Shown here: in pieces, positions 6,750-29,498 of the stretch | How positions within the stretch are numbered: the first letter of the stretch is position 1 | How the letters are laid out: the number at the start of each line of letters is the position of its first letter | Notes under the pieces: model-generated | Seen by the model: only the letters and a program-made list of their open reading frames with translations | Databases searched by the model: none | Told to the model about the DNA's origin: nothing | Assembly (NCBI RefSeq): GCF_029223525.1 | Contig: NZ_JARHTQ010000007.1 | Coordinates: 62,001 to 126,000 of the forward strand | Reading direction: 5' to 3' | Length of the DNA stretch: 64,000 bases | Origin: Streptantibioticus ferralitis | GTDB lineage: Bacteria > Actinomycetota > Actinomycetes > Streptomycetales > Streptomycetaceae | Position numbers and translations under genes: made by a program

Positions 6750-7919
6750 TCAGCCGACGGCCGTGACGGTGCCGGCGCCGACGGTCCGGCCGCCCTCACG
6801 GATGGCGAAGCCGAGTCCGGCCTCCAACGGCACCGGACGGCCCAACTGCACCGTCATCTCCACGGTGTCGCCCGGCCGCGCGATCCCGACCCCGCCGAGG
6901 TCCACATCACCGACCACGTCCGCGGTACGGATGTAGAACTGCGGCCGGTATCCGCTGCCGATCGGGGTACGGCGACCGCCCTGCCCGGTCGGCAGCACGT
7001 AGACCCGCGCGGTGAACCGTCCGCTCGGCACGACGCTCCCGGGCGCGGCCACCACATGCCCGCGCCGCACGGTCTCCCGCTGCACTCCGCGCAGCAGCAG
7101 CGCGACGTTGTCTCCGGCCTCGGCGGACTCCATCGGCTTGCCGAAGGTCTCCAGTCCTGTGACGGCGGTCTCGATCCCGGCTCCGAGCACCTCGACCCGG
7201 TCGCCGACCCGTATCGTGCCGCGCTCCACGGCACCGGTGACGACCGTGCCGCGGCCGGTGATGGTGAGCACGTTCTCCACCGGCAGCAGGAACGGCGCGT
7301 CGGTGTAGCGCGTCGGGACCGGTACGTAAGTGTCGACCGCGTCCAGCAGCGCCTCGATCGCCCCGGTCCAGCGCGGGTCGCCCTCCAGCGCGCGCAGCCC
7401 GGAGACCCGTACGACCGGCAGGCTCTCGCCCGGGTAGCCGTGCGCGCACAGCAACTCGCGCACCTCCAGCTCGACCAGGTCGGTCAGTTCCGGGTCCCCG
7501 GCGTCCGCCTTGTTGAGCGCGACCACGACATGCTCGACTCCGAGCTGCCGGGCGAGCAGTACGTGCTCCGCGGTCTGCGGCATGACGCCGTCGAGCGCCG
7601 AGACCACCAGCATCGCGCCGTCCAACTGCGCCGCACCGGTGATCATGTTCTTGACGAAGTCGGCGTGCCCGGGCATGTCCACGTGCGCGTAGTGCCGGGT
7701 GGCCGTCTCGTACTCGACATGCGCGATGTTGATGGTGATGCCGCGCGCCGACTCCTCCGGCGCGCGGTCGATCCGGTCGAACGGTACGAACGTGCCGGTC
7801 CCCCGGGCGCTGAGCACCTTGGTGATGGCGGCGGTCAGCGTGGTCTTGCCGTGGTCGACGTGCCCCATCGTGCCGATGTTCAGGTGCGGCTTGGTGCGCA
7901 CGTATGCCTGCTTGGCCAT
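6750..7919 (-). CDS. tuf3: Second elongation factor Tu (EF-Tu3 type)
   Basis: 389 residues. EF-Tu carries aminoacyl-tRNA to the ribosome as a GTP complex. All GTPase motifs are present: GHVDHGKT near residue 19, [13 protein letters not shown] (switch I), DMPGHADF (usual spelling DCPGHADY), NKAD and SGLRAL (usually SALKAL). Domains 2 and 3 follow, ending [18 protein letters not shown]. It is shorter and more divergent than the housekeeping tuf1 product of streptomycetes and its N-terminus [20 protein letters not shown] matches what I remember of tuf3. There is no rpsL-rpsG-fus context, unlike tuf1. The ATG at 7919 follows AAGGAAGG. In streptomycetes tuf3 is known as a poorly expressed, starvation-linked copy; a role here is inferred. 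Confidence 0.93.
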
Positions 7920-8128
7920 GATTCCTTCCTTGGACACTGCGGTGAGTCCGCGAACCCCTGGGCCCGGCCGACCCTCCCCCTGCGGGGTCCGCGGAAGTGT
8001 CCGGGAAGGGTCAGGTTCGGGCGCCGTCAAAGGACGCGGTCGCTGCGAAGGAATCGACGGATCCGGCGGCAGCCCGCAGCGCGTCCGCGACGGCGGACGA
8101 GGCTGCGAAGGCGTACCGGAACATGCGG

Positions 8129-8806
8129 TCAATGATCCATGGCGCGGCGGAGGTTGGCGACTGGTTTTCCGGCGGACACCGACGCGCCGGACCGCTCAGC
8201 CGTGCCGCGGCCGCAACGCAACCGGAACACCGGTCCACGGGCGGTGAACGGCAGTGAACCGGCCTGGGGAACCAGGAAGGCGTGCTCGCGGCGGATCCGC
8301 AGCATGTCGCAGTAGCCATCGGTGATCACCAGGACGGGCGCCGACGGCGGGAAGCCCTCGGCACGCGGCAGTAGGTCGATGCCCGGCTGCAGCAGCGTGC
8401 CGCCGCGGCCGCGCACCCGTACCCGTCCGGCGATCTCCGCGACCGGCGGATAGCCCGCGCCGCGCGGTGCGGCGTCGCAGAACACCACGCGTGCCGCCGG
8501 AACGTCCCGGGACTCGGCGTAGGACGCGATCGCGCCCAGCGCCTTGCCCAGCAAGGTGCGGCTCATCGAACCGGAGGTGTCCAGGACGATGCCGAAGGTG
8601 CAGCGTGCGATCTCCTCCGGCGGGAAGTACCGGCCCGCGCGCGGGATGTCGGGGGCGGCGGCCTGGCGGCGGGCCGGACGGGCATAACGCCGGTAGAACT
8701 CGTCGAGGTCCACGTAGTCCGCCGGTCGGTGGGGGAGCGGTTCACCGAGGATGTCGCCGCGCAGCTCGGGTATGCGGGCGGGAGTGACGGTGACGGCTGC
8801 CTGCAC
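8129..8806 (-). CDS. VWA-domain protein, C-terminal part of DUF2201 type
   Basis: 225 residues. A von Willebrand A fold with MIDAS motif DTSGSMSR (residue ~76), TLLQPGI and VITDGYCD is clear. Related proteins are about twice as long, with an N-terminal metallopeptidase-like half (DUF2201_N); here only the C-terminal half remains. Yet GTG at 8806 is preceded by AAGGAG at good spacing, so the short form may be translated. The last ~30 residues (after GPVFRLR) look unlike the family, where the protein normally ends, and may be read-through after a frameshift. In complete systems it pairs with a MoxR-type AAA ATPase, which is absent here. Best read as a truncated gene of doubtful function. Confidence 0.65.
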
Positions 8807-8980: not shown

Positions 8981-10060
8981 ATGGGGTTGCTGACCATCGG
9001 GGCTTTCGCGAAGGCGTCCCGGCTGTCACCGAAGGCACTGCGTCTTTACGACGAGCTCGGACTGCTGACCCCGGCGCGCGTCGACCCGACGAACGGCTAC
9101 CGCCGCTACGACCCGCAACAGCTGGAGCAGGCCCGGCTGGTGGCCTGGCTGCGCCGCCTCGGTGTGCCGCTGGCGCAGATCCGGCAGATCTGTGTGCTGG
9201 AAGCGCCCGCCGCGGCGTGGGAGGTACGCGCGTACTGGGCGCGGGTCGAGGCCGATGTCGCGGCCCGGCGGGACCTGGCCGCCTTCCTCATCGACCATCT
9301 GTCCCGGAAGGACCCCGAGATGACACTGTCCGTCAAACCGCTGGAAATCCGTTACGCCGCGCTGTCCGACGCCGGACTGGTACGCGAGAGCAACCAGGAC
9401 ACCGCCTACGCCGGATCCCGGCTGCTCGCGGTCGCCGACGGCTTCGGCGGTGGTGGCGCCCCGGCCAGCGCGGCCGCGATCGACGTGCTCAAGTCCCTGG
9501 AAACCGACGGGATCCCGGCAGGCAACCTGCTCAACGCCCTCGAAGACACTGTGCAGCAGGCCCAACAGGCCGTGCACGGCATCGCCGCGGCCGACCCCGC
9601 ACCGCAACAGGTGGGCACCACGCTCACCGCGATGCTCTGGACCGGAACGCAACTGGCCCTGGTCCACATCGGCGACTCCCGCGCCTACCTGCTACGCGAC
9701 GGCGAGTTCCTGCAGATCACCCACGATCACACCGCGGTCCAGTCGATGGTCGACGAAGGACGCATCAGCGCCGAGGAAGCCGCCTCCCACCCCCAGCGCT
9801 CGCTGCTGGCAAGGGCCCTGGCGGGAGCGGGCGAAGCCACTCCCGAGGTACGCCTGCACGATGCTCGACCCGGTGACCGCTATCTGCTCTGCTCCGACGG
9901 CCTGTCCGGCGTCGTACCGCCGGAGGCACTGCGCCGGGTGCTCTCGACGGTCTCCGATCCCGAGCAGGCGGTGCGCGAACTGATCGCCCTGGCCAACCGC
10001 TCCGGCGGGCCCGACAACGTCAGCTGTGTGGTCGCCGATGTGCTGGAGCCGCGGCAGTAG
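8981..10060 (+). CDS. MerR DNA-binding domain fused to a PP2C phosphatase
   Basis: 359 residues. Residues 1-110 form a MerR winged helix (LLTIGAFAKASRLSPKALRLYDELGLL, YRRYDPQQLEQARLVAWLRRLGVPLAQI) followed by a short coiled coil. From about residue 118 a PP2C/SpoIIE-type Ser/Thr phosphatase follows with metal ligands in RESNQDTAYA, VADGFGG, VHIGDSRAYLLRDG, LCSDGLSG and GGPDNVSCVV. A phosphatase takes the place of the small effector-binding domain of MerR proteins, so DNA binding and dephosphorylation are joined in one chain. RBS AGGAGGAG precedes the ATG, and a MerR-type promoter lies 40 nt upstream. The partner kinase is not in the window. Domain calls are firm; the target is unknown. Confidence 0.92.
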   Translation: MGLLTIGAFAKASRLSPKALRLYDELGLLTPARVDPTNGYRRYDPQQLEQARLVAWLRRLGVPLAQIRQICVLEAPAAAWEVRAYWARVEADVAARRDLAAFLIDHLSRKDPEMTLSVKPLEIRYAALSDAGLVRESNQDTAYAGSRLLAVADGFGGGGAPASAAAIDVLKSLETDGIPAGNLLNALEDTVQQAQQAVHGIAAADPAPQQVGTTLTAMLWTGTQLALVHIGDSRAYLLRDGEFLQITHDHTAVQSMVDEGRISAEEAASHPQRSLLARALAGAGEATPEVRLHDARPGDRYLLCSDGLSGVVPPEALRRVLSTVSDPEQAVRELIALANRSGGPDNVSCVVADVLEPRQ

Positions 10061-10147
10061 GTCCGGCTCGGACCGCCTCAACTCCTCCTGGTTTCCGCTC
10101 GGTTCATGGCATCGGGGGTGACATGCTTTCGACCGGGCGGTAATTGA

Positions 10148-10180
10148 GCCCGCCTACTCACGTCGTCTGAGTAGGCGGGC
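10148..10180. terminator. Terminator of the MerR-PP2C gene
   Basis: A perfect 13-bp inverted repeat (10148-10160 with 10168-10180) has a 7-nt loop. It lies about 90 nt after the phosphatase stop codon. Confidence 0.75.
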
Positions 10181-10285
10181 CGATCGACCGCGCTCGGCGG
10201 GAGGGTTCGATGGGGGCCATGGACGGAACCATCACCCCCGAGCAAGAGCGCGAAGCGCTGGACCACAACCTGCGGAAGGGCGCGG

Positions 10286-10528
10286 GAGTTCGACCCAGTA
10301 CTGTCCGTCAACGTCCGCGCGGTCATACTCGCCGTCCAGACCGCGCTGCGGTTCCTGCCCGGGGGCGGGCGGATCGTCACTGTCGGCAGCAACATCCACG
10401 ACCACACGCCCTTTCCCGGTATGGCGCTGTACGTGGCGAGCAAGGCCGCGTTGAGCGGTCAGACCAGGGGCCTGGCCCGCGAGGTCGGCCCGCGTGGCAT
10501 CACGGCGGTCCTCGTCGTAGTCCGGCGT
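10286..10528 (+). pseudogene. Short-chain dehydrogenase fragment
   Basis: About 80 codons read as the middle of a classical SDR: SVNVRAVILAVQTAL (conserved Asn), GGGRIVTVGS (catalytic Ser), and YVASKAALSGQTRGLAREV with the Tyr-x-x-x-Lys pair. The N-terminal Rossmann half with GxxxGxG and the C-terminus are absent, and no start codon fits. It is a deletion remnant wedged between a terminator and the 3' end of the DinB gene. Confidence 0.8.
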
Positions 10529-10557
10529 CGGCCGTGCCCGGGCCGCGGGAGCGTACG

Positions 10558-11064
10558 TCAGGCGCCGACGGTTCCGTCGATGCCCTCGCGCAGGAAGTCG
10601 GCGTGTCCGTTGTGCCGGGCGTAGTCGTGGATCAGATGCAGCATCACCAGACGCAGCGACACGTCCTGGCCCCACCTGGGCTGATGGCCGATCACATCGA
10701 GCGACTCGGCCTCCCGCTCGATCCGCCGCGAGTGCTCGACCTCGGCCTGCCAGGCCTCGAACGCCCCCGACCGGGTCTGCGCACTCGCGTCGAACGCCGC
10801 CTGGTAGTCGCCCTCGTCCGACCACACGAGCGGGATGTCCTCCCCGTTGATCACCCGGCGGAACCATGTCCGCTCAACCTCCGCCATGTGCCGCACCAGG
10901 CCGAGCAGCGACAGCGTCGAGGGCGGCATCGACTGACGGCGCAGATCCTCGTCGGAGAGGCCGTCGCACTTCATGGCGAGCGTCGCCCGGTGGTAGTCCA
11001 GGAAGGCACGGAGCATCTCGCGCTCGTCCGCTATCAACGGCGGGCCGATCCGTTCGGTGGTCAT
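10558..11064 (-). CDS. DinB/DUF664 four-helix protein
   Basis: 168 residues of the DinB/YfiT-like metal-binding helical bundle. Likely ligands are His in LVRHMAEVERTWF and the late HLIHDYARHNGHADFLRE. Members include mycothiol- and bacillithiol-dependent transferases, but most DUF664 proteins are uncharacterised. ATG at 11064 overlaps the stop codon of the upstream gene as ATGA, so the two are translationally coupled. A longer upstream start is possible but reads through shadow sequence of the neighbour. Confidence 0.88.
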   Translation of the reverse strand: MTTERIGPPLIADEREMLRAFLDYHRATLAMKCDGLSDEDLRRQSMPPSTLSLLGLVRHMAEVERTWFRRVINGEDIPLVWSDEGDYQAAFDASAQTRSGAFEAWQAEVEHSRRIEREAESLDVIGHQPRWGQDVSLRLVMLHLIHDYARHNGHADFLREGIDGTVGA

Positions 11065-11624
11065 GAGTGGAAATCCCTTCGCTTGATCTTGGCCATGCGC
11101 ACCCCGTCCGGGTGGTGCCACACGATGCCCTCGTACTGCGGACGGGCGTGCAGCCAGTCCCGTAGCCCCTCGAAGTCCCGCGGTGCGGCCGCCACATCGG
11201 CGCTGACCGACGACGGTGCCCAGCCGTGGCGCACCAGGACGTGCCCCTCGAAGCCATCCGGGTTGCCATTGATCTTCGGCCCCACCAACTCGTAGGTGCC
11301 AGGAGCCCACGCCTCCCCCAACCGCTCGGCCTCAGCGTGGAACTTCGCGAACGACGACTGGGACATCGGCTCCCAGCCGACCGCCTTGCCGGTGGTCTCG
11401 TCGGTCTGCACGGGCAGGTAGTTCGCGGGCGACCGCCCACCGGCCTTCACCTCGCGCCGCGCCCACCACTCGCCGGACCGGTCGAGCATCACGCACGTCC
11501 CGTCCCACTTCCGTGTCGCCGTGCCCTCACCGGCCAGCACCCACTCGCAGTTGGGCGTCACCTCGGGCAGCAGGCCCCCGCGCTCCTGCCGATCGCGCAC
11601 GAACAGGGTAGGGATCTTACGCAT
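11061..11624 (-). CDS. RNA-ligase-like nucleotidyltransferase (DUF5565-like)
   Basis: 187 residues. The covalent nucleotidyltransferase motifs are visible in order: motif I TRKWDGT (Lys as the probable AMP acceptor, residue ~39), RREVK, YELVGPKINGNP (motif III/IIIa region), EGIVWHHPDG (motif IV) and MAKIKRRDF (motif V). This is the core of RNA/DNA ligases and capping enzymes without any accessory domain. Actinomycete homologues are known only as a DUF family of putative RNA ligases. ATGA overlap with the downstream DinB gene implies joint expression. RNA end healing or tRNA repair is possible; no kinase/phosphatase partner is present. Confidence 0.82.
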   Translation of the reverse strand: MRKIPTLFVRDRQERGGLLPEVTPNCEWVLAGEGTATRKWDGTCVMLDRSGEWWARREVKAGGRSPANYLPVQTDETTGKAVGWEPMSQSSFAKFHAEAERLGEAWAPGTYELVGPKINGNPDGFEGHVLVRHGWAPSSVSADVAAAPRDFEGLRDWLHARPQYEGIVWHHPDGVRMAKIKRRDFHS

Positions 11625-11717
11625 GACTTCCCCCGGTTTGGATGCAGCTTGTCCGGTGCGTAGTGAACCAGTACTGGCCAGCTGACCGGTACCGAATTGG
11701 GCGGCGTGCCCCGCGAC

Positions 11718-12719
11718 CTAGCCCGGCGCGAGATGCGCCACCACCTCGGCCAGTTCCTGGCAGGCGTCCTCCACCTTGCGGCGGGTGTTGTTCCGCTCGG
11801 TGGTGATCGCGGCCAGTAGGAGTGCGGTCAGGGCGGCGGCGCCGTTGAGGGCCTGCAGGTTGACCATGGTCGCGACGAGACCGTGATGTGCGAACGGTCC
11901 GGTGTGATGGGTCGCCGACGTCACCGCGCCCACGGACACGACCAGCGCGCAAGGCGCGGCTCCCGCAAGTTGGAAACGCAGCGCCGCCCAGATGAGTAGC
12001 GGGAAGACAAGGAACAGCAGCGACAGGGAGGTGCTGGTGACGCCGAACGTGACCACCACCGTGCCGACCAGCAGGGCCGCCGCCTCGGCCCACTGGAGGA
12101 AGGGGACGTCACGGGGCACGCGGACCCTGCGCACGGTCAGCAGCAGTGGTGTGACCACGAGCACGCCCAGCGCGTTGCCCGTCCACCACGCCGACCATGC
12201 CGTCCAGAACGAGTCGGCGGGCACCCGGCCGCTGAGCACCAGAGCACCGACGGCCAGCGTCGGATTGACCAGCGTGCCGGCCAATGCGCCCAGGAACACC
12301 AGTGCCAGCCCGTCCCGCAGCCGGCCCAACTCGACGCGGAAGCCGACCTGGCGGAGCATCAGGTAGGCACAGATCGGGGCGAGCGTGTTCCCCGCGATGA
12401 TTCCGACGTCAGCGAGCGGATAGTGCCACGGCAGGAACGTCAGCTCGGAGAAGAGTGCGCCGAGCGCGATCCCCGGCCAGGTCCGCATCCCCCAGTAGAG
12501 CAGGTAGGTCAGGGCGATGCCCGAGGGCAGCCAGAGTGGGGAGATGACCTGGTTGCCGGCGACCACCACCCGTTCCGTCTCGCCGAGCCAACTCGTGGCG
12601 ATGTAGGAGGCGGCGACGACGACCAGCCGAACGGCCGCTGTGGCGTCACGCCGGGGTTCCTCGTTGCGCACCACGGCGGCCATCACACTACGTATCGCTG
12701 CCGAAGCCCGTTCCGACAC
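11718..12719 (-). CDS. MASE1-domain integral membrane protein
   Basis: 333 residues with about eight to nine hydrophobic segments covering nearly the whole chain. SPLWLPSGIALTYLLYWG and WWTGNALGVLVVTPLL are typical of the MASE1 sensory membrane domain. MASE1 usually precedes a kinase, GGDEF or PP2C output domain; here the protein ends soon after the last helix with a short charged tail (TERNNTRRKVEDACQEL), so no output domain is encoded. Start GTG at 12719 with an AGGAG 10 nt upstream. It may act with a separate partner; the neighbours give no hint. Confidence 0.85.
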   Translation of the reverse strand: MSERASAAIRSVMAAVVRNEEPRRDATAAVRLVVVAASYIATSWLGETERVVVAGNQVISPLWLPSGIALTYLLYWGMRTWPGIALGALFSELTFLPWHYPLADVGIIAGNTLAPICAYLMLRQVGFRVELGRLRDGLALVFLGALAGTLVNPTLAVGALVLSGRVPADSFWTAWSAWWTGNALGVLVVTPLLLTVRRVRVPRDVPFLQWAEAAALLVGTVVVTFGVTSTSLSLLFLVFPLLIWAALRFQLAGAAPCALVVSVGAVTSATHHTGPFAHHGLVATMVNLQALNGAAALTALLLAAITTERNNTRRKVEDACQELAEVVAHLAPG

Positions 12720-13059
12720 GCGGGAGCGAGCTCCTCAGCCCATCGGACAGGGGAGCGCCGCGGAGCCGTTGGTCGGTGCCGCCAGAGGGACACCCGCCAG
12801 CACCGTCCGTCACACCGGCCCGTCGGCCCGCTCCGGGTCGTTGTTCGCGCGTGCCTCCGCGATCCCCGCCCGCGACACCACCCATGTGCGCGCCGCGGCC
12901 GCCTGGGGGGCCGGACCGTGCGGCTGGGCCGCTACGGCCTCAGCGTCCGCCGCGTCGGGCAGCCCGTCAGGATCGCCAGCCGGGTAATCCGCGTAATCCG
13001 ATTCGTCCACGACCACATCAACGGACGAGACGCGCGCAGGTGACGGTGGACTTGTGGCG
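12720..13059. other. Spacer without a recognisable gene
   Basis: Frames on both strands are open but low in coding character and match nothing I know. A minus-strand stretch (12810-13016) of acidic, Ala-rich composition may be a relic. No hairpin or promoter stands out. Confidence 0.5.
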
Positions 13060-13405
13060 CTCCCGCCGAAGATCCGGCACCGCCTGCCAGACCGGCGCGA
13101 CGCTGGTGGGCTCGCTGCTGGGACCGCGGGGCAGGACGCGGCTGACCATGCCGGTCGCTGTGCGGGCGATGCTTCTGGCGCCGGGGCATGCCTGCCCGCC
13201 GTCGCTGGGTTGGGCGTTGGCCTGCCAGACGCTGACCGGCTGATGTACGTCCTACAGCCTCGGGCTGGACCAGTGGTTCATCGCAGCGGTTCCGGACGAA
13301 CTCCTCGGTCGGGCCATGAGGTTGATGACCGCCGGGCTGCTGACCGGTCAGGGTCCGGGCATGACCCTGGCGGGTACCGCCGCCGATTGGGCACCGCCGC
13401 CGGGG
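13060..13405 (+). pseudogene. C-terminal remnant of an MFS drug transporter
   Basis: A continuous frame interrupted by one in-frame TGA (13241-13243) reads like the last four helices of an MFS exporter: SLLGPRGRTRLTMPVAVRAM, then after the stop SYSLGLDQWFIAAVPDELLG and RAMRLMTAGLLTGQGPGM. The N-terminal two thirds are absent and the expected C-terminal end is lost. There is no plausible start codon, so this is a relic. Confidence 0.7.
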
Positions 13406-13723
13406 TCGCGTGCTGACATAGCCGCTGGTTCTCGCAGTGAGAACCAGCCGTTCTTGGACATACCGCCGGGCGGACGACACCCTGGAGATCATGGGGAACA
13501 CAGCGCACCACAGAACGACGGAGGAAGTCAGAGCCGGATCGCGGCCGAACGCCGGGAGTTGGCGGCCATGTTGGGAGTCGGCGGGCGGCGTCAACTCGTC
13601 GGCCGCGACCACGCGATGGCGCTGGATGCCGCGGATCAGCGGCCGCGAGGGTGGCAACTGTCGGCGGCCTGCCGCTCTTTGGGAGCGTGGGTCCGGATAG
13701 GGGCGTCGCCCAGGTCGGGCGCG
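13406..13723. other. Spacer without a recognisable gene
   Basis: Follows the MFS remnant up to the end of the CDF gene. Nothing coding is recognised on either strand and no clear hairpin is seen. Confidence 0.5.
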
Positions 13724-18628: not shown

Positions 18629-20137
18629 TCAATGCGGGGAGACGGCGGGGACGGGCCGGTGGCTCCTGCGCTGCGCCGCGACCAGGGCGGCCGCGGGCAA
18701 CATGCTGCATCCGCTCACCCCGATCAGCGCCCAGTAGGCGAGGTCGACCGCATGCGCCCTGGATATCGGCGCCGGGCTGTAGGTGTAGGGCATACGGGCC
18801 AGCAGGAGCACCAGCGTCGCGCTGCCCAGCGAACCGCCCACGTGCTCAAGGGTGTTGAACTGTGTGCTGGCCTGACCGATGTGCGTGGGGGAGAGCGACT
18901 GGTAGGCGGCGGTCATCGCCTGGGTGTGCGCCAGCCCGACACCCACGCCCCGGAGCACCGTGGCGGTGATCAGCCACCAGTACGGCGTCGTTGTCGTCAG
19001 GAAGGCGAACGGCAGCGTGGCGAGCAGCACGGCGCCGCTGCCGACCAGGACGGTGGCACTGCCCAGCCGCTCGAACAACCGGCCGGACAGCCACATCGCG
19101 GCGGCCGTGCCCAGCCCCTGCGGCGCGATGAGCAGACCGGTCCGCCAAGGGTCGTCGCCCCGGACGGTCTGAAGGTACAGCGGCAACAGGATCGTTCCGC
19201 CGAACACGACCGCGCCGGTCACCAGCATCGACTGTGCGGCCGCCCGGAACACCCCGTTCCGGTAGAGCCGCAGATCCAGCAGCGGACTTTCTCCCTGGAG
19301 CGACCAGACGATGAAGGCCGTGATCAGTACGGTCCCGGCGCACAACGGGACCACCACGGCCGGGCAGCCCAACTTCCCGGCATGACCGGCCTGGGTCAGC
19401 GCGAACGTCAGGGAGGCCAGCCCGGGGGAGACCAGCAGCAGCCCGATCACATCGAGGGATGCCGTGGGACGCGGCGGCCTGGGCTCCACGAGTCGGCGCG
19501 CCAGGAGCGTGGCGACGATACCGAGCGGCACGTTGATGAAGAAGATCGAACGCCAACCCTCGTAGGCCAGCAGTCCGCCACCCGCCAGCGGCCCGAGGAC
19601 CGCGACCAGCATCACCGGAATGCTGAAAGCGGCCATGGCCCTCGGCAGCCGATGGGGGCCGGCGGCGGTGACGAGCATGATCCGGCTGACCGAACTGATC
19701 AGTCCGGCGCCGACTCCCTGCACCGCGCGGACGCCGATGAGCTGCCAAGGGGCCTCGGACAGGCCGCACAACGCGGATGCGACGGTGAAGACGCCCATCG
19801 CGGTCAGGTACATCTGCTCCGGGCCGAATCGCTGCGCGGCCCAGGTACTTGTGGGGACCGCGGCCGCGAAGGCCAGCATGTAGGCCGAGACGATCCACTG
19901 CGTGGTGCTCAACGACATGTGCAGGCCGGTGGACAGCGACCGCAGCGCGACATGGACGACGGACGAGTCGAGGTAGAGCATGACCGCGCCCAGCAGGACG
20001 ACGAACATGGTCAGGCGCAGTCGGCCCGACCATCTCCCGTTCTCCTCAAGGGGCGTGGGCTCCTGGGACCAACTCGCCTCGCGGGGCGCGGGTCGCCGGG
20101 CATGCCGCCCATGGGCGGCGGCTTTACCTTTCTTCAT
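18629..20137 (-). CDS. MFS multidrug exporter, DHA2 type
   Basis: About 502 residues with 14 predicted membrane helices. Typical DHA2 features are motif D1-like LYLDSSVVHVALRSL in TM1, STTQWIVSAYMLAFAA, the ring motif GPLAGGGLL (motif C) and IFFINVPLGIVA. It is a proton-driven drug or metabolite exporter of the EmrB/QacA group. The start is uncertain: ATG at 20137 (MKKGKAAAHGRHARR) has no good ribosome site, and the frame remains open to 20302. Translation may be coupled to the small upstream frame that ends at 20124. The substrate is unknown. Confidence 0.87.
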   Translation of the reverse strand: MKKGKAAAHGRHARRPAPREASWSQEPTPLEENGRWSGRLRLTMFVVLLGAVMLYLDSSVVHVALRSLSTGLHMSLSTTQWIVSAYMLAFAAAVPTSTWAAQRFGPEQMYLTAMGVFTVASALCGLSEAPWQLIGVRAVQGVGAGLISSVSRIMLVTAAGPHRLPRAMAAFSIPVMLVAVLGPLAGGGLLAYEGWRSIFFINVPLGIVATLLARRLVEPRPPRPTASLDVIGLLLVSPGLASLTFALTQAGHAGKLGCPAVVVPLCAGTVLITAFIVWSLQGESPLLDLRLYRNGVFRAAAQSMLVTGAVVFGGTILLPLYLQTVRGDDPWRTGLLIAPQGLGTAAAMWLSGRLFERLGSATVLVGSGAVLLATLPFAFLTTTTPYWWLITATVLRGVGVGLAHTQAMTAAYQSLSPTHIGQASTQFNTLEHVGGSLGSATLVLLLARMPYTYSPAPISRAHAVDLAYWALIGVSGCSMLPAAALVAAQRRSHRPVPAVSPH

Positions 20138-20737: not shown

Positions 20738-21103
20738 ATGATGAAACGTCACTCCATCCGCAGGTCCGTCACCGCGGCCCTGCTCACCGCGGGAGTCGCG
20801 GTCGGCACGCTGACGACGGCCGCCGGGGCTCAGGCCCTCACTCCGGCCCACTACGGCCGCTGGCACCACCACGTCGAGGGGCGCGTGGTATCCCCGGAGC
20901 CGCTGACCGTCCACTACGGACCCGGCGTCAACCGGTGGGTCACCGGGACCATCAGCAACGGCATGCACGTCTGGATCGTGTGCAAGGCCGAGGGCAGCCG
21001 GGTCGGCGCCAACGACCGCTGGTACAAGCTCGCCGACGGGCAGGGCTGGGTCCCCGCCCACTACGTGAACAACTACCGGTACGTCCGCTGGTGCACGAGG
21101 TGA
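20738..21103 (+). CDS. Small secreted SH3-like protein
   Basis: 121 residues. A twin-Arg-like basic start (MMKRHSIRRSV) and hydrophobic stretch end in AGAQA, a good signal peptidase site near residue 33. The mature part has VHYGPGVNRWVTGTISNG, VWIVCKAEGSRV, RWYKLADGQGWVPAHYV, the pattern of bacterial SH3 domains, with two Cys that could form a disulfide. Such proteins bind cell wall or are secreted freely; the role is not known. GGAGAGAGGAG precedes the ATG. Expression may depend on the inverted repeat directly upstream. Confidence 0.85.
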   Translation: MMKRHSIRRSVTAALLTAGVAVGTLTTAAGAQALTPAHYGRWHHHVEGRVVSPEPLTVHYGPGVNRWVTGTISNGMHVWIVCKAEGSRVGANDRWYKLADGQGWVPAHYVNNYRYVRWCTR

Positions 21104-21193: not shown

Positions 21194-22567
21194 TCACCCG
21201 GCGCCAGGCTTACCGGAACGGCCTGAACCGGTCCCTGCGGGCGGTAGTTCGGGAAGCGCCGTGGTGTACAGCCAGTCGTGGAAGAAGTCACCCAGTGCGA
21301 CGCCCGACACCAACTCGGCGAGCGCGACGAAACGTTCGGTACCGGCGCTGCCGCCCCGGTACCGGGCCACCCACTCCCGGAGGATGCCGAAGAACCTCTC
21401 GTCACCCACGGTCAGTCGCAGGGCGTGCAGTGTCGACGCTCCCCGGCTGTAGAGGCGCTCGTCGTAGAGCGCGGCGGGACCGGGGTCGGCGATGACGAAG
21501 TCCTGGCCGACCGCGCGCAGTTCGGCCAGCTGGGACGCTGCCATCGCGTGGGCGCCGGGGCCGCCGGTCGCCTGGGACCACAGCCACTCGGCGTAGGTCG
21601 CGAAGCCCTCCTTGAGCCAGATGTCCCGCCAGTCGCCGATGCCGACGCTGTCGCCGAACCACTGGTGGGCCAACTCGTGTGCCACCTCGTCCTCATGGCC
21701 CCGTCTGCCGTCGATCCGGTCGGTTCCGAAGACGGATAACGTCTGCGCCTCCAGCGGGTCGCCGACCACGGCGTCCACCACGACGGCCCCGTACTGCTCG
21801 AAGGGGAACCGGCCGAACAGGTCGGAGAACAACCGGAGCATCCGCGGCTGGCGGCCGAAGTCGAACCGTGCGCGATCCACCAGGCGTTCGGGGAACGCGT
21901 TCCGCAGCAGTACTCCCGGCGGACCGCCGGACTGCTCGTCCCACACGAAACGGCCGATCGCGACGGTCGCCAGATAGGCTGACATCGGCTCCTGGTGATC
22001 GTAGACCCACTCGGTGCGGTGCCCGCCGACCGGTCGCCGCAGCGCCAACCGTCCGTTGGCGCACACCTGGTAGGCCTCCGGTGCCGTCACCGCTATCCGG
22101 TACCGGGCCTTGTCGTCCGGCCGGTCGTTGCTCGGGAACCACGAGGGGGCGCCCAGCGGTTCGCTCATCACAGCGACGCCGTCGCGGGTCCGGAACCAGC
22201 CTGCCTCGTCGTCCAGTTCCGGGATCCCCACCGGTCTCGGGACACCGCGGTAGCCGACCTCGATGTCAACGGGCCGTCCGGGCGGCAACGGCAGGCCGGG
22301 CCTGATGTACAGCTTCTTCTTCCGCCGCCGGAACTCCGCGGGCACGTCGGCGGCGACGACCCGGGAGACCTCCATACGGGACAGATCCAGACTGAGCACG
22401 TCCAGCGCGCGCTCCGGGACCACGGTGATGCTCGCGGTGCCGAGGACGCGACCGGATCCCGGCTTCCAGTCCAGCTGTATGCGGTACCGCAGGACCCGGT
22501 AGTCATCGCTTCCATGCCGGGGAAAGTACCTGTGCCGTCCGAGGTCTCCCGCCCCCCTCGACTCCAC
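21194..22567 (-). CDS. M1-family zinc metallopeptidase of the poly-amino-acid locus
   Basis: 457 residues. The gluzincin site HELAHQWFG (residue ~296) and the third ligand Glu in KEGFATYAEWLW 19 residues later are intact, with the exopeptidase-type loop reading DPLEAQT in place of GAMEN. No signal peptide or membrane segment is seen, so it is probably cytoplasmic or membrane associated. The GTG at 22567 follows AAAGGGAGG. It lies 118 nt after the aspartokinase gene on the same strand, last in the pls-dat-ask-peptidase series. From memory, epsilon-poly-lysine-degrading enzymes of producers are zinc aminopeptidases, so I infer a role in trimming or clearing the polymer. A generic aminopeptidase is the alternative. 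Confidence 0.9.
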   Translation of the reverse strand: MESRGAGDLGRHRYFPRHGSDDYRVLRYRIQLDWKPGSGRVLGTASITVVPERALDVLSLDLSRMEVSRVVAADVPAEFRRRKKKLYIRPGLPLPPGRPVDIEVGYRGVPRPVGIPELDDEAGWFRTRDGVAVMSEPLGAPSWFPSNDRPDDKARYRIAVTAPEAYQVCANGRLALRRPVGGHRTEWVYDHQEPMSAYLATVAIGRFVWDEQSGGPPGVLLRNAFPERLVDRARFDFGRQPRMLRLFSDLFGRFPFEQYGAVVVDAVVGDPLEAQTLSVFGTDRIDGRRGHEDEVAHELAHQWFGDSVGIGDWRDIWLKEGFATYAEWLWSQATGGPGAHAMAASQLAELRAVGQDFVIADPGPAALYDERLYSRGASTLHALRLTVGDERFFGILREWVARYRGGSAGTERFVALAELVSGVALGDFFHDWLYTTALPELPPAGTGSGRSGKPGAG

Positions 22568-22685
22568 GCGAATTCCTCCCTTTGGGCACTGGCTGGGCGG
22601 GATGCCGGGCAGGGGACGGGCGCTTGCCGATCCCGTCCCCAAGGTGACTGCCCGAGGCCGCGGCCCTCGTTGGCGAACGGTCCCG

Positions 22686-23969
22686 CTACGTCCTTGCGCG
22701 GACCTCCTCTCCCTCGGCCGAGACCATGGCCGGTGCCTCAGGTGTCCCCAGCCCGAATGCCGTATGCAACGCACGGACGGCGTCGCCCAGTTGAGCGGCC
22801 CGGCACACGGCCGAGATCCGGATTCCCGAGGTGGAGATGATGTCGATGTTCACTCCCGCCGCGGCCAGGGTCTCGCAGAAGGTGGCGAGCACCCCGGGTT
22901 GTGCGCGCATACCGGTTCCGACCAGCGAGACCTTGCCGATGTGCTGGTCCAGGCAGATGTCCTCGAACCCGATCTCCGCGTGCTGTCCGCGCAGCGCCGC
23001 CAGCACGGACAGACAGCGGTCCGCCGGAACGAGGAAGGACAGTTCTGTACGACCGTCGGCTGGGTGCGATGCGTTCTGCACCGCCATGTCGAGCTCGGCC
23101 CCGGCGTCGGTGACGGCCCGGAAGACTCGGGCGGCGTGGGCGGGCCGGTCGGGCAGACCGGTCACGGTGATCTTGGCACCGGACTCGTCGTGTGCGACCC
23201 CGGTGATCGACGGCCGTTCGGCGGCGGGCACCTCGCGGGCCGCGCAGACCATGGTGCCCGGCCTGCTGTGGTACGAGGAGCGCACGTGTACGGGTACGCC
23301 GTGGCGGCGGGCGTACTCCACACTGCGCGGCGCCAGCACTCTGGCGCCGCATGCGGCCAGCTCCTGCATCGTCTCGTAGGTGATGTGGTCCAGCCGCCCG
23401 GCGTCCGGCACGATCCTCGGGTCCGCGGTGTAGACCCCGTCCACGTCGGTGTAGATCTCGCAGGTGTCGGCCTTCAGGGCGGCGGCCAGCGCTATCGCCG
23501 TGGTGTCGGAGCCGCCACGGCCCAACGTGGTGACGTCGCCGGTTTCCCGGTTGACTCCCTGGAACCCCGCGACCAGGACGATCGCGCCGCGGTCGAGCTC
23601 CTGCCGTACCCGGCCGGGGTCCATGTCGGTGATCCGTGCCCTGCCGTGCGCGGCGTTGGTGAACACCCCCGCCTGCGAGCCGGTCAGGGAGCACGCTGCG
23701 CCATCGAGCGCCTGGATGGCCATGGCGACCAGGGCGTTCGAGACGCGCTCGCCCGATGTCAGCAGCATGTCCAGCTCGCGTGGCGTGGGTGCGGCGGTCA
23801 CCTCCTGCGCCAGGCCGAGCAGTTCGTCGGTGGTGCCGCCCATCGCGGAGACCACCACCACGACGTCGTGACCTGCCTTGCGGGTCGCGACGATGTGCTC
23901 GGCGACCTTCTTGATCCGCTCGGTGTCGCGCACCGAGGAGCCGCCGTACTTCTGGACGATGAGAGCCAC
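22686..23969 (-). CDS. ask: Aspartokinase dedicated to the diaminobutyrate locus
   Basis: 427 residues. It phosphorylates L-aspartate, the first step to aspartate semialdehyde. Seen are KYGGSSV at the N-terminus, [60 protein letters not shown] and two C-terminal ACT domains. It is of the alpha2beta2 type with an internal start expected for the beta subunit. The GTG at 23969 lies 4 nt after the aminotransferase stop, and its AGGAGG is inside that gene, so the two are translationally coupled. No asd gene follows, unlike the housekeeping ask-asd pair, so this is probably a second, pathway-specific copy. Feedback behaviour cannot be read by eye. Confidence 0.93.
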
Positions 23970-23973
23970 GTGG

Positions 23974-25359
23974 TCACGCCTCCTGCCGTGCCTTGTCCCT
24001 GGTCGCTTCGGCGATCGCGCCGACGAGGATCGCGCAGGCGGTGTCGACGACTTCCGCGGTGACGTTGAGCGGTGGCATCAGACGGACCACGCAGTCGGCG
24101 CGGCCGCCGACCTCGACGATCAACCCGCGCCGCAGTGCGCGGGCCTGCACTTCGGTGGCGAGTTCGCCCGCCGGGCCGCCGTCGGTGGGGTCGGCGAACT
24201 CGATCCCCCACATCAGTCCGCGACCGCGCACCTCGCTGACCCAGGGGTCGGCATGCAGCCCGGCGAGTGCCCTGGTGATCTGCTCCCCGCGCTGGCGCAC
24301 GTTGCCCAGCACGTCGTCGCGGCGGAAGACGCGCACCGCCTCCGCGCCGGCGGCGAAGGCCAGTTGGTTGCCGCGGAAGGTCCCGGTGTGCGCGCCCGGC
24401 GCCCACACGTCAAGTCGCCGGTCGTAGAGGATGACGGCGACCGGTGTACCGATGCCGCTCAACGCCTTGGACGCGACGATGACATCGGGCTCGATACCGT
24501 ACTGCTCGAAGGCGAACCAGGTACCGGTGCGTCCGCAGCCGCTTTGCACCTCGTCGACCACCAACGGGATGCCCAACTCCAGCGTCAACTCCCGTACCCG
24601 GCGTACGAAGTCGGCGCGCGCGGGGATGATGCCGCCCTCGCCCTGCACCATTTCCAGGATCACGGCGGCGGGCAGCGGCACTCCGCCGTTGCCGTCCCGC
24701 AGCGAACGCTCCAGATAGCCGGCGCAGTTGGTGGTGCAGGTGTCCGGCGTCAGGTCGAGCGGGCACCTGGCGCAGTAGGAGTAGGGGAAGAAGTGGATGC
24801 CGGGTACTCCGTTGGGCACCGGTTGCTTCTGCGAAACGAGTCCGGTGATCGCCATGGCGGCATGGCTGCTGCCGTGGAAGCCGCCCTGGAAGGAGATCAC
24901 ATCGCCGCGGCCGGTCGCGGTCTTGCAGAGCTTCAGCGCGGCGTCGACGGCGTTCGCTCCCGTCGGACCGCAGAAGTGGAACTTCATCCGGTCCCGCAGG
25001 CCCGGCGCCAGCATGGACAGTTGGGCCTCGATGAACTCCTCCTTCGCGGGGGTGGGGAAGTCCAGGCCGTGCGTGAGCCGGCCGAGTTGCGCGGTCATGG
25101 CCGCCACCAGATCGGGGTGGTTGTGGCCCAGGGAGAGCACACCGGCCCCGGCGAGGAAGTCGATGAAGACATTGCCGTCGACGTCCCGGACGAAGCTTCC
25201 GGAAGCCTCCTCGATGGCGATGGGTAACCGGCGCGGGTAGGTTCGGGCATTGGACTCGTGGCGCTGCTGGAGCGCCAGGAACTCGGCCGAGCGGGGGCCC
25301 GGCAGCTCGTGGTCGACGTGTGGGGCGGTCCATGGGCTGCACTGGTCGAGCGATGTCAT
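23974..25359 (-). CDS. dat: Diaminobutyrate:2-oxoglutarate aminotransferase
   Basis: 461 residues, class III PLP aminotransferase. It should transfer the Glu amino group to L-aspartate-4-semialdehyde giving L-2,4-diaminobutyrate. Family signs are [88 protein letters not shown] and the PLP lysine in [14 protein letters not shown]. This pattern is that of Dat/PvdH/EctB-like DABA transaminases; ectA and ectC are absent, so ectoine is not the goal. An unusual Cys cluster ([17 protein letters not shown], residues ~195-215) is present. Placed between the NRPS and the aspartokinase, it links primary metabolism to the polymerase. Start ATG at 25359 after CGGAGA. Confidence 0.9.
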
Positions 25360-25451: not shown

Positions 25452-28400
25452 TCAGCAGGGGCGGGCCGGAATGCCGCGCCAGCGGGTCTGGTCGGGCAGT
25501 CGCTCGCCCTTCATGACCAGGGACAGCGCATCCAGTGAGGTACCGTCGCCGACTTCGGCGTCATAGAGGACGACGGACCGGGGGCCGACCGAACTGGCCT
25601 TTCCGACCCTGACGTTGGACATCTTCATCACCCGGTCCTCGAACAGGTGGGTCTGCAGGGATGTGACCTCTCCGACGGCCGCGTCGTCGCCGACCTCCAC
25701 GAGGTCGAACTCCGTCATGTAGGTGGTGGCCAGCCACACCCGTCGGCCGATGCGGGCGCCGAACAGCCGCATCATCGTGGCCATCCACGGGGTGCCGGTC
25801 AGGAAGTTCACCAGGGAGGGCACGACGAGGTTCTCGAACAGCCCCGTGATGAGTTCGGTGCGCCGCACCCAGATCCCCCACAGCGGTTCGACCCGCGGTC
25901 GATAGCGGCCGATGACCAGCCATTTCAGGGCCACAGTCACCAGGGTGGAGAGCACACCGACGCAGAGCAGCAGCGCCGGTCCCAACAGGAAGAGGGCGAG
26001 CGGGGAGGCCGACCTGGCGAGGTGGATCGAGGCGTACAGGCTTACCAGGACGCCGAGTGCCGCGATCGTGGCGGGCAGGGTCACCCGGAAGTACTCGATC
26101 ACCAGGCGTGCGGCGATGAGCCCGGGGCTGGGGTGGTAGGTGAACTTCGCAGGGAAGTCCTGGCTGGCCTCCCGGCGGGGCAGGAAGATGGCCGGTGATC
26201 CCAACCAGGTCGTCTCGGGGTCCACCGGCCGGGTCGGCGCCACCGAGTGCACACCCAGCAGGCTGTTGTCGCCCATCCGGCAGGAGCCCGGCACCAGCGC
26301 GCCGTTGCCGACGAAGCTTCGGCGTCCCACCTCCGCCGGTGCCAGAGCGATCCGGCCCCGGTGGAAGACGGCGGGCCCCACCACACTGACGTCCGCCACG
26401 AAGCTGCGTTCTCCGATGACCAGCATGTCCGGATCGACGAAGCTGACGGTGGCCACTTCGGACCAACGACCGGTGCGCGCACCGAGCATACGGAGGAACG
26501 GCACCAGGTAGAGGGTGGAGTACAGCGCGTGGGTGAGCACCATGCTGGTGGTCATCAGACCGTCGGCGATCCATTTGCGCACCCCGAAGCCGCTACGTTC
26601 CGGGTAGACGCCCGCCCGCACTTTCGGCAGCACCGCACGCTTGACCACCAGCACCAGGGCGCAGGTGAGCAGCACGACCAACGGCCCGACCGCGGCCGTG
26701 GACGCGCAGGCCCAGCCGAAGCCGTCCTGGACCGCCACATAGCCGACGAGCGTCCCAGCCGTGTCGGCGATGATCAGCGGCACCAGTATGAGCACCAGCG
26801 CGCCCGCGGCGTATCCGCCGATCAGCCGCAGGGGCCACCGCCGGTGGTCGGCGTCCGCAGCCAGGGCCTCAAGTACCGGTGGGGGAGCGGCCTGTCGGCG
26901 GGCCGGAGACCCGGACCAGTGCTCGTCGGCCGGTACGGTCTGGTCCGCGGGCACCAGCGACTGGTCTCCCACGGACGCGTCGCTGCCGACCACGGCGCCC
27001 GGCATGATGACGCTGTTGGTCCCCACGAAGCTCCGGTCGCCGAGCGTGACCGGCGCCAGCCGCAGCCAGCCGTCCTGGACCAGGAAGGACTGCACCCGCG
27101 CGCCGTATCCGATGCTCGCCTCGTCGCCGATCGTCACGAAGGTCGGCAACGCGATGACCGAGGACAGGTGGCAACCGCGCCCGATCCCCGCCCCCAGCAG
27201 CCGAAGCAGGGGCGGCAGCAGCGGTGAGCCGGTCAGCAGGGCGAGCGGCGACATCGCCAGCACCTTGCCGTAAAGCCAGAACCTCAGGTACGTCACACCC
27301 CACAGCGGATACCAGCCGGGGCGTACCCCGGACATCAGCAGCCGCCCGCCGAGCAGCGGCAACGCCAGCAGGCTGACCAGCAGCCATCCGATCTCCAGCG
27401 GAACGAACGAGCCGAACCCCAGGCGGCTCAGCTGGTCCAGCGCGGAGCCGGGCGCGACTGCGCGCGCCGGGACGTGCCACACGGCCAACAGCCGGTAGAC
27501 GAGCACGCCGACGGGCAGGCCGATCAGCAGCAACCACCCGTACAGTGCGGCTATTTGGGCAAGTCCGCACGCTATGACCCGGGCGGTGGAGTGGCGCCTG
27601 GCCGGAGGGACAGGCGCCGCCGATCGCTGTTCGGCCGGCGTCGCGTCACCGGTGTCGAGGAACGTGGCCAGATCGCGGATGGTGGGGTGGGCGTACAGAT
27701 CGGCCATCGCCACTGTCGCCAGCTCCGGTTGCCGCCGTAGCCGGGAGACGAGGCGGGCCGCCGCCATGGAGTGGCCGCCCAGGTCGCAGAAGAAGTCGTC
27801 CTCCACCGAGATCGTCTCGGTGCCCAGAACTTCCCGCCATACCGCGGCCAGTCGGCGCTCCACCGGGGTCCGTGCGGCGGCATGGGGTCTGAGGCGTCGC
27901 GCGAGCGGGGGAGAGGTGGCGGCGGGCAGCGCGGTACGGTCCACCTTGTCGGCCGCCAGCAGCGGGAATTCGGGCAGCACCTCGACGAACGACGGGATCA
28001 TGTAGTCCGGAAGCCTGCGACGCAGCGCGGTGTGCAAGCGCGTGCGCAGGTCATCCTGGGTGTCATGGCCCGTACGGCCGTTCAGCGTGACGTAGCCGAC
28101 CAGGTCCTGCACCACGCCGTCCCGCTCCAGCGGGGTGACCACCGCGTTCTCGACCGCGTGGTCCTCGCGCAGTACCTCCTCGATCTCGGCCAACTCGATG
28201 CGGTATCCGCGGATCTTCACCTGGGTGTCGATCCGGCCCAGGAACTCGATCTCTCCGGCGGAGGTGAACCGCCCCAGATCGCCCGTGCGGTAGATCCGCG
28301 GGTTCTCCGCCCGCTCGTGCTCCACCGGATTGGTCACGAAGCGTTCCGCGGTGAGCTCCGGCCGGTTGAGGTAGCCGATCGCCACCCCCGGACCGCCGAC

Positions 28401-29498
28401 GCAGATTTCACCGCTCTCACCTTCGGCGACCGGGCGCAGCCGGTCGTTGAGGATGTAGATCCGGTAGGTGGGCAGCGGGGTGCCGATGGTGACCGGCCGA
28501 TGGGGCAGCAGTTCCCCGCAGGTCGCCGTGACGGTCGATTCGGTGGGGCCGTACGCGTTGAGGATGCGGCGCCCGGGGCGGTGCCAGCGGCGTACCAGGT
28601 CCGGTGGGCAGGCCTCTCCGCTGACCAACAGGCTGCGCAGGGTGGGTACTTCGGCCTCGATGGTGGTCAGCAGCGTCGGAACGCAGCACAGCACGGTGAT
28701 CGCGTTCTCGATGAGGAAGTCGGCGAGCCCCTGTCCGACGCGCCGGTCGTCGGTTGGTCCGGCCACCAGCGTCGCCCCCGCCGCCCATGCGGGCCAGATC
28801 TCCTCGACCGAGAAGTCGAAGGCGATGGACAGCCCCTGATAGACCCGGTCCGCACTGTTCACCCGATAGATCGGTGTGACGACGCGCAGGAAGTTGACGA
28901 TGTTGGCGTGCGAGACGGCAACACCCTTGGGTCGACCGGTGGTTCCAGAGGTGTAGATGACGTAGCACAGCGACGACGCGCTGACACCGCCCTCGGGGCG
29001 ATCGTCCGGTTGGTCGGCCAACTGGCCCGCGTCCACGTCGAGTTCGAGCACCTGGCAGGGCAGTCCCCGAGTCCGGGCCGACATGGTGGAGGTCGTCACC
29101 AGGTCGCACAGTCCGGCGTCCTGCGCGATGAACGCGACCCGGTCGGCCGGGAACGAAGGGTCCAGCGGAACATATGCGGCACCGGCCTTCATGATGCCGA
29201 GTAGCGCCACGTAGGTGTCGACGGATCGATCCAGCAGGATTCCGACCGCCTGGCCCTCCTTGGCGCCGCGCTGTCCCAGCAGCCGCGCCAACTGGTTGGC
29301 GCGGCCGTCGAGTTCGGCGTAGCTGAGCCGCGTGTCGGCGCAGATCAGGGCTGTATTCTCCGGCTCTCGGTCACATGCTCGCTCGAAGAACTGGACCAGT
29401 CCCCGAGTCGGCGGTAACGCCCGGGGGCGCGGTGTGGCGGACGCGCCCGGATCATCACCCGCCCTGGGGGAAAGTGCCGTTGACTTCGCGTCTGGCAT
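25452..29498 (-). CDS. Pls/PosA-type NRPS, probable homopoly-diaminobutyrate synthetase
   Basis: 1348 residues. An adenylation domain (about 25-535; AMP loop YTSGTTGRPKG near 184, NAYGPTESTVTATCG, IKIRGYRIELAEIEEVL-like hinge, A10 lysine in AADKVDRTALP near 518) and a thiolation domain (DLGGHSMAA, Ser near 575) are followed by three repeats of two membrane helices plus a left-handed beta-helix domain (helices near 646-722, 893-955 and 1133-1195; beta-helices near 785-850, 1020-1080 and 1256-1346). No classical condensation or thioesterase domain exists. This is the architecture of epsilon-poly-lysine synthetase. A hand-aligned A-domain code reads D-F-E-C-L-S-A-V-T, with Glu at the third position able to bind an amino side chain. 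ATG at 29498 after AAGGAG. Confidence 0.92.
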   Translation of the reverse strand: MPDAKSTALSPRAGDDPGASATPRPRALPPTRGLVQFFERACDREPENTALICADTRLSYAELDGRANQLARLLGQRGAKEGQAVGILLDRSVDTYVALLGIMKAGAAYVPLDPSFPADRVAFIAQDAGLCDLVTTSTMSARTRGLPCQVLELDVDAGQLADQPDDRPEGGVSASSLCYVIYTSGTTGRPKGVAVSHANIVNFLRVVTPIYRVNSADRVYQGLSIAFDFSVEEIWPAWAAGATLVAGPTDDRRVGQGLADFLIENAITVLCCVPTLLTTIEAEVPTLRSLLVSGEACPPDLVRRWHRPGRRILNAYGPTESTVTATCGELLPHRPVTIGTPLPTYRIYILNDRLRPVAEGESGEICVGGPGVAIGYLNRPELTAERFVTNPVEHERAENPRIYRTGDLGRFTSAGEIEFLGRIDTQVKIRGYRIELAEIEEVLREDHAVENAVVTPLERDGVVQDLVGYVTLNGRTGHDTQDDLRTRLHTALRRRLPDYMIPSFVEVLPEFPLLAADKVDRTALPAATSPPLARRLRPHAAARTPVERRLAAVWREVLGTETISVEDDFFCDLGGHSMAAARLVSRLRRQPELATVAMADLYAHPTIRDLATFLDTGDATPAEQRSAAPVPPARRHSTARVIACGLAQIAALYGWLLLIGLPVGVLVYRLLAVWHVPARAVAPGSALDQLSRLGFGSFVPLEIGWLLVSLLALPLLGGRLLMSGVRPGWYPLWGVTYLRFWLYGKVLAMSPLALLTGSPLLPPLLRLLGAGIGRGCHLSSVIALPTFVTIGDEASIGYGARVQSFLVQDGWLRLAPVTLGDRSFVGTNSVIMPGAVVGSDASVGDQSLVPADQTVPADEHWSGSPARRQAAPPPVLEALAADADHRRWPLRLIGGYAAGALVLILVPLIIADTAGTLVGYVAVQDGFGWACASTAAVGPLVVLLTCALVLVVKRAVLPKVRAGVYPERSGFGVRKWIADGLMTTSMVLTHALYSTLYLVPFLRMLGARTGRWSEVATVSFVDPDMLVIGERSFVADVSVVGPAVFHRGRIALAPAEVGRRSFVGNGALVPGSCRMGDNSLLGVHSVAPTRPVDPETTWLGSPAIFLPRREASQDFPAKFTYHPSPGLIAARLVIEYFRVTLPATIAALGVLVSLYASIHLARSASPLALFLLGPALLLCVGVLSTLVTVALKWLVIGRYRPRVEPLWGIWVRRTELITGLFENLVVPSLVNFLTGTPWMATMMRLFGARIGRRVWLATTYMTEFDLVEVGDDAAVGEVTSLQTHLFEDRVMKMSNVRVGKASSVGPRSVVLYDAEVGDGTSLDALSLVMKGERLPDQTRWRGIPARPC

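Follow-up and report, generated by a model that had tools for sequence, protein, structure and literature searches.

A gene for an M1-family zinc peptidase lies at the end of what appears to be a cluster for a polycationic isopeptide in Streptantibioticus ferralitis, raising the question of whether the enzyme is a hydrolase dedicated to the cluster's polymer and, if so, what purpose it would serve. The gene, which we call the window M1, was analysed within a stretch of 64,000 nucleotides (NZ_JARHTQ010000007.1, positions 62,001–126,000), referred to here as the window.

The M1 gene and its cluster

The window M1 is an intact two-domain M1 zinc aminopeptidase (Table 1). In profile searches it matched PF01433 with 85 bits (cut-off 27.7) and PF17900 with 42 bits (cut-off 25.8), and it combines the N-terminal domain of peptidase family M1 with an HEXXH-X18-E zinc site, the Glu of a GxMEN-like motif (PLEAQ in this protein) and Tyr373, so that the M1 catalytic set is complete. 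The first-pass annotation had read the HELAHQWFG motif and the third Glu ligand from the DNA and both are confirmed, the latter as Glu320; His297, Glu298 and His301 are invariant across 101 M1 peptidases linked to pls genes. Glu273 we take to be the anchor for the N-terminal amine of the substrate. An AlphaFold model, with the window M1 and 26 pls-linked relatives as input, reached a pLDDT of 89.7, and its best PDB match was the two-domain M1 enzyme of Deinococcus radiodurans (6ifg/6a8z; TM 0.84–0.89). The D. radiodurans enzyme shares the two-domain fold and a Glu at the position of Glu136 with the window M1, but the two are just 29% identical, and we know of no association of the former with a polymer synthetase.

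On the minus strand the genes run synthetase, dat, ask, M1, and because the downstream neighbour, which encodes a small SH3-like protein, lies on the opposite strand, the M1 gene is the last of the same-strand series, as had been proposed. The same four-gene order is retained in a congener (G001), where the start of the M1 gene is likewise preceded by a ribosome-binding site (GGAGGA) and the M1 is 74% identical to the window M1. The dN/dS of this pair is 0.095, indicating purifying selection, and together with the conserved order this argues that the arrangement is not due to chance. Close to the end of the cluster lies an MFS transporter gene (18629–20008), also present in G001 (85% identical), which encodes a possible exporter.

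The synthetase, transaminase and aspartokinase genes make up the gene set of a gamma-poly-L-diaminobutyrate (Dab) cluster. The A-domain code of the synthetase recurs, identical or nearly so, across the related Dab clusters compared; Lys-type synthetases, including three others in the same genome and the S. albulus-like one, have the code DAESIGTVVK. No DapF/PddB-type racemase gene (DAP_epimerase family) was found on the window's contig, the only matches in the genome being on C23 and C48. From the dat and ask genes, the A-domain code and the lack of a linked racemase, we infer that the product is likely gamma-poly-L-Dab. The pldA-dat-ask cluster of Streptomyces celluloflavus (PMC8117764) likewise unites a synthetase, a Dab transaminase and an aspartokinase; its gene context is described as unlike the pls-peptidase operon, whereas the window cluster, compared with it at the level of gene context, includes a peptidase gene. 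Similarly, the poly-D-Dab cluster pddA-D of Streptoalloteichus hindustanus (PMC8225329) combines a Pls-type synthetase with a dedicated aspartokinase and a Dab transaminase; in contrast to the window cluster, beside which there is none (two DapF-like genes lie elsewhere in the genome), it contains a PddB-type racemase gene.

Three further loci touch on this chemistry. In G023 a synthetase 36% identical to that of the window also has a DFECLSxVTK code, and the gene immediately following it encodes a class-III aminotransferase (L053, 5956–11253). In the window's own genome, C23 holds a second Dab-transaminase-like gene (L042, 4705–6114 and neighbours) in what appears by eye to be an IucA/IucC-type siderophore set, and C48 holds the second DapF-like gene (L211, 8132–9019), near what by eye is a DnaB-helicase-like gene and with no Pls gene seen linked to it.

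The interval between ask and M1 measures 118 bp. It contains a hairpin that recurs in G001 with longer arms and one compensatory A-T to G-C change; there is no U tract, and the window copy alone is not clearly above shuffled sequences. The hairpin may serve as an attenuator or as a tail-less terminator. Scans of the interval for consensus promoters and terminators gave no match. Given the gap and the conserved hairpin, the M1 gene may be transcribed separately, and shared transcription is not to be assumed.

Table 1. Features of the M1 gene and its cluster, in window coordinates.
Feature	Position	Strand	Basis
Pls/PosA-family single-module isopeptide synthetase, A-domain code DFECLSAVTK	25452..29498	-	TIGR02353 550 bits, cut-off 423; code extraction
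Diaminobutyrate-2-oxoglutarate transaminase (dat)	23974..25359	-	TIGR00709 447 bits, cut-off 402
Aspartokinase (ask), GTG start	22686..23969	-	NF005153 627 bits, cut-off 585
Hairpin in ask-M1 gap, 9-bp perfect arms, 11-nt loop	22612..22640	-	Sequence; recurs in G001
Ribosome-binding site GGGAGG, 7 nt 5' of the M1 GTG at 22567	22575..22580	-	Sequence
M1-family two-domain zinc aminopeptidase (window M1), 457 aa, GTG start	21194..22567	-	PF01433/PF17900; AlphaFold model
Glu273 of GxMEN-like motif	21749..21751	-	Invariant in linked and unlinked M1s
HELAHQWFG zinc/catalytic motif, residues 297–305	21653..21679	-	Translation
Third zinc ligand Glu320 (HEXXH-X18-E)	21608..21610	-	Invariant in linked and unlinked M1s
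Small SH3-like protein, marks end of gene set	20738..21103	+	Weak PF08239 match below cut-off; kept beside cluster in G001

M1 peptidases at polylysine and poly-Dab loci

An M1 gene behind an isopeptide synthetase gene is already known for polylysine. The neighbour of pls in Streptomyces albulus is PldII, a demonstrated epsilon-polylysine-degrading aminopeptidase (PMC9223678; PMC8117764), and PldII-type hydrolases have, as far as published accounts show, been described from polylysine producers only. Using the A-domain sequence of S. albulus Pls as query, confirmed against PDB 7wew, we retrieved 80 named pls loci, and in 70 of the 77 actinobacterial ones with enough downstream sequence an M1 peptidase gene lies directly 3' of pls. 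As a stand-in for S. albulus we used a Streptomyces locus (L058) with this arrangement, the Pls A domain of which is 93% identical to that of S. albulus Pls. The window M1 also lies 3' of a Pls/PosA-family synthetase gene on the same strand, with dat and ask intervening. Across 150 relatives, every M1 match above about 340 bits for which the flank could be inspected adjoins a Pls gene. The window's own genome has seven M1 genes, three of which stand 3' of one of its four Pls-type genes: the window M1 and those on C34, which is 51% identical to it, and C62. Small M1s on C44 and C23 are not near pls, and the third Lys-type synthetase gene of this genome (L040 on C33, 8060–11980) has no M1 behind it.

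In a tree from which long branches had been removed, unlinked secreted M1s were split from the pls-linked and Dab-linked M1s with support of 100/100, and the Dab-linked pair (the window M1 and that of G001) was sister to the pls-linked set (95/82). In the tree of all rows the pair instead nested inside the pls-linked M1s, together with Tat-bearing enzymes (95/92), and AU tests do not separate the two placements (p ~0.4). On sequence grounds we therefore place the window M1 in the same group as the pls-linked M1s, PldII included, either inside or as sister, and the class given in the first-pass annotation, that of the polylysine-degrading zinc aminopeptidases, proves largely right.

Several Pls relatives and M1 homologs stand apart from this pattern. 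Locus L050 in G121 (7131–8504 and 9370–13515, minus strand) has a Pls relative with the code DFEYLGTVTK and no dat, perhaps for a different monomer, followed by genes for a 247-aa protein and an M1. This M1 falls in the unlinked, secreted group, which suggests that M1 peptidases were recruited to such synthetases at least two times. A further Pls relative, in G007 (L051, 6615–10544; DFEYVGTVTK), has neither dat nor M1. An M1 homolog in G094 (L180, 6972–8225), on a long branch next to the Dab-linked M1s, has a ruined zinc motif (ARTLAAQW for HELAHQW) and resembles a pseudoenzyme.

Among the genomes compared, linkage of an M1 to a Dab cluster is specific to the window's genus, where it is seen in both members with the cluster (the window's genome and G001) and is absent from the single member lacking the cluster. 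The search for related Dab synthetases yielded loci in G006, G031, G035, G037, G095, G154, G192, G235, G237, G298 and G535, with fragments in G093 and G096, and at these clusters in other genera no M1 was found where the flank was readable. The M1 is therefore dispensable for the pathway. Because G006, G031, G035, G037 and G095 carry M1s of the pls-linked type elsewhere, the polymer could be hydrolysed in trans in those genera. Two other Dab clusters have hydrolase genes after ask; that of G095 encodes an S9 oligopeptidase, and that of G037 a protein resembling S12 beta-lactamases. We considered whether such unrelated hydrolases fill the M1 slot and rejected this; both are kept in congeners for which our searches gave no Dab-type synthetase (S9 in G097, G100 and G103, S12 in G021), which argues that they are bystanders. 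No peptidase belongs to the published poly-Dab clusters, and the synthetases for poly-L-Dab, poly-D-Dab and poly-Dap are reported to stand in a gene context unlike the pls-peptidase operon (PMC8117764), so that an M1 in a Dab cluster departs from the published picture.

Sequence departures and export signal

PldII and the window M1 are both M1 zinc peptidases encoded behind a Pls/PosA-family synthetase gene, with the catalytic residues kept, but their partner clusters differ (Lys versus Dab), and PldII is encoded directly behind pls, in contrast to the window M1 with dat, ask and the gap in between. The proteins differ as well. At 72 positions conserved in at least 97% of the 101 pls-linked M1s, which we term near-invariant, both Dab-linked M1s carry other residues at nine (41, 120, 134, 136, 268, 283, 284, 294 and 368), compared to 0–3 departures in nine control subclades. 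As these residues are not kept, we call the window M1 PldII-like and not PldII. Several of the departures adjoin the catalytic motifs at 271–275 and 297–301. Position 136 is occupied by Gln in 98% of the pls-linked M1s, whereas 92% of the unlinked ones have Glu there, as do the Dab-linked enzymes; we take it to be the counterpart of Glu121 in E. coli PepN and Gln136 in LTA4H and to help hold the free amine of the substrate. Furthermore, an acidic stretch ahead of Glu273 in pls-linked M1s is partly missing from the Dab-linked M1, with two acidic residues at 262–272 compared to a mean of 3.8 in the pls-linked set, which could mean that a polycation is bound more weakly, and a new Asp293-Glu294 precedes the HEXXH motif.

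Neither the window M1 nor its G001 counterpart has a hydrophobic N-terminus that could act as an export signal, and extension of the window ORF upstream to 22774 added no hydrophobic stretch. A hydrophobic N-terminus is present in the unlinked small M1s and a Tat-like RR signal in S. albulus-type (L058-type) enzymes; most other pls-linked M1s lack an export signal. The all-rows tree had pointed to the loss of a Tat signal in the window M1; however, this was upheld neither by the tree without long branches nor by the AU tests. PldII itself is located at the outer face of the membrane (PMC9223678). The homology model of PldII in that paper places two zinc ions at D44, T45, D173 and K174, an assignment at odds with the HEXXH site of family M1, in which our analysis places the pls-linked peptidases.

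Function of the window M1

Taken together, these observations make it probable that the window M1 is a PldII-type aminopeptidase of a poly-(gamma-L-diaminobutyrate) cluster that hydrolyses this polymer in the cytoplasm. In such an isopeptide polymer the alpha-amine of every residue would stay free beside the scissile carbonyl, and Glu273 and Glu136, as anchors for an amine, could thus accommodate residues within the chain as well as at its end. Lacking the C-terminal domain of larger M1 enzymes, the two-domain form would leave the site open to the chain. The enzyme would break down polymer or oligomers that find their way into the cytoplasm, recovering their Dab, and would not set the length of secreted chains; self-protection and recycling are the best reading of its role. 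Specificity for gamma-linked Dab, as the first-pass annotation had envisaged, is plausible, and the nine departures from the PldII type point that way. The stronger claim, that the window M1 is a cytoplasmic enzyme specialised for gamma-linked poly-Dab through its altered active site (Gln136 to Glu, the acidic loss before Glu273 and the new Asp293-Glu294) and the first hydrolase associated with any polycationic isopeptide besides polylysine, is one we advance only tentatively.

The enzyme might instead still act mainly on epsilon-polylysine, that of its own genome or of neighbours, its place in the Dab cluster being historical. Its resemblance to the C34 enzyme would fit this, as would the presence of Lys-code synthetases on C34, C62 and C33, the last without a linked M1. 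However, C34 and C62 each have an M1 of their own, the nine positions that Lys-type enzymes keep are changed in the window M1, and in both species where it occurs the M1 has remained part of the Dab cluster, and we consider this explanation unlikely. That the window M1 is an ordinary cytoplasmic aminopeptidase come to rest beside the cluster and acting on normal peptides seems decidedly improbable. Glu136 does restore the ordinary M1 residue, as in the D. radiodurans enzyme, and the S9 and S12 enzymes encoded next to ask in G095 and G037 provide a precedent for bystanders, but the nearest kin of the window M1 are polymer-linked. Moreover, an ortholog kept without the pls cluster, which had been named at the outset as counting against a dedicated hydrolase, was looked for, and none above ~54% identity was found outside the cluster in 150 relatives, nor any in a congener that has no cluster (G002).

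We give very little credence to the proposal, also made in the first-pass annotation, that the hydrolase sets chain length by trimming the growing or exported polymer. Repression of pldII in S. albulus gave chains of more than 40 residues (PMC9223678), but an earlier inactivation of pldII left the 25–35-mers unchanged, according to the passage of PMC9223678 that cites it, and the window M1 has no export signal, which makes trimming of a secreted polymer unlikely. The proposal is thus unsupported here.

What is new is the apparent occurrence of a PldII-like M1 in a putative poly-Dab cluster. The purpose of PldII-type hydrolases is debated, with self-protection, recycling and length control all proposed, and a relative tied to another polymer, with few changed residues and no export signal, offers a handle on isopeptide specificity and on intracellular self-protection. 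If the window M1 is indeed a poly-Dab hydrolase, it would be useful for making antimicrobial polymers of defined length.
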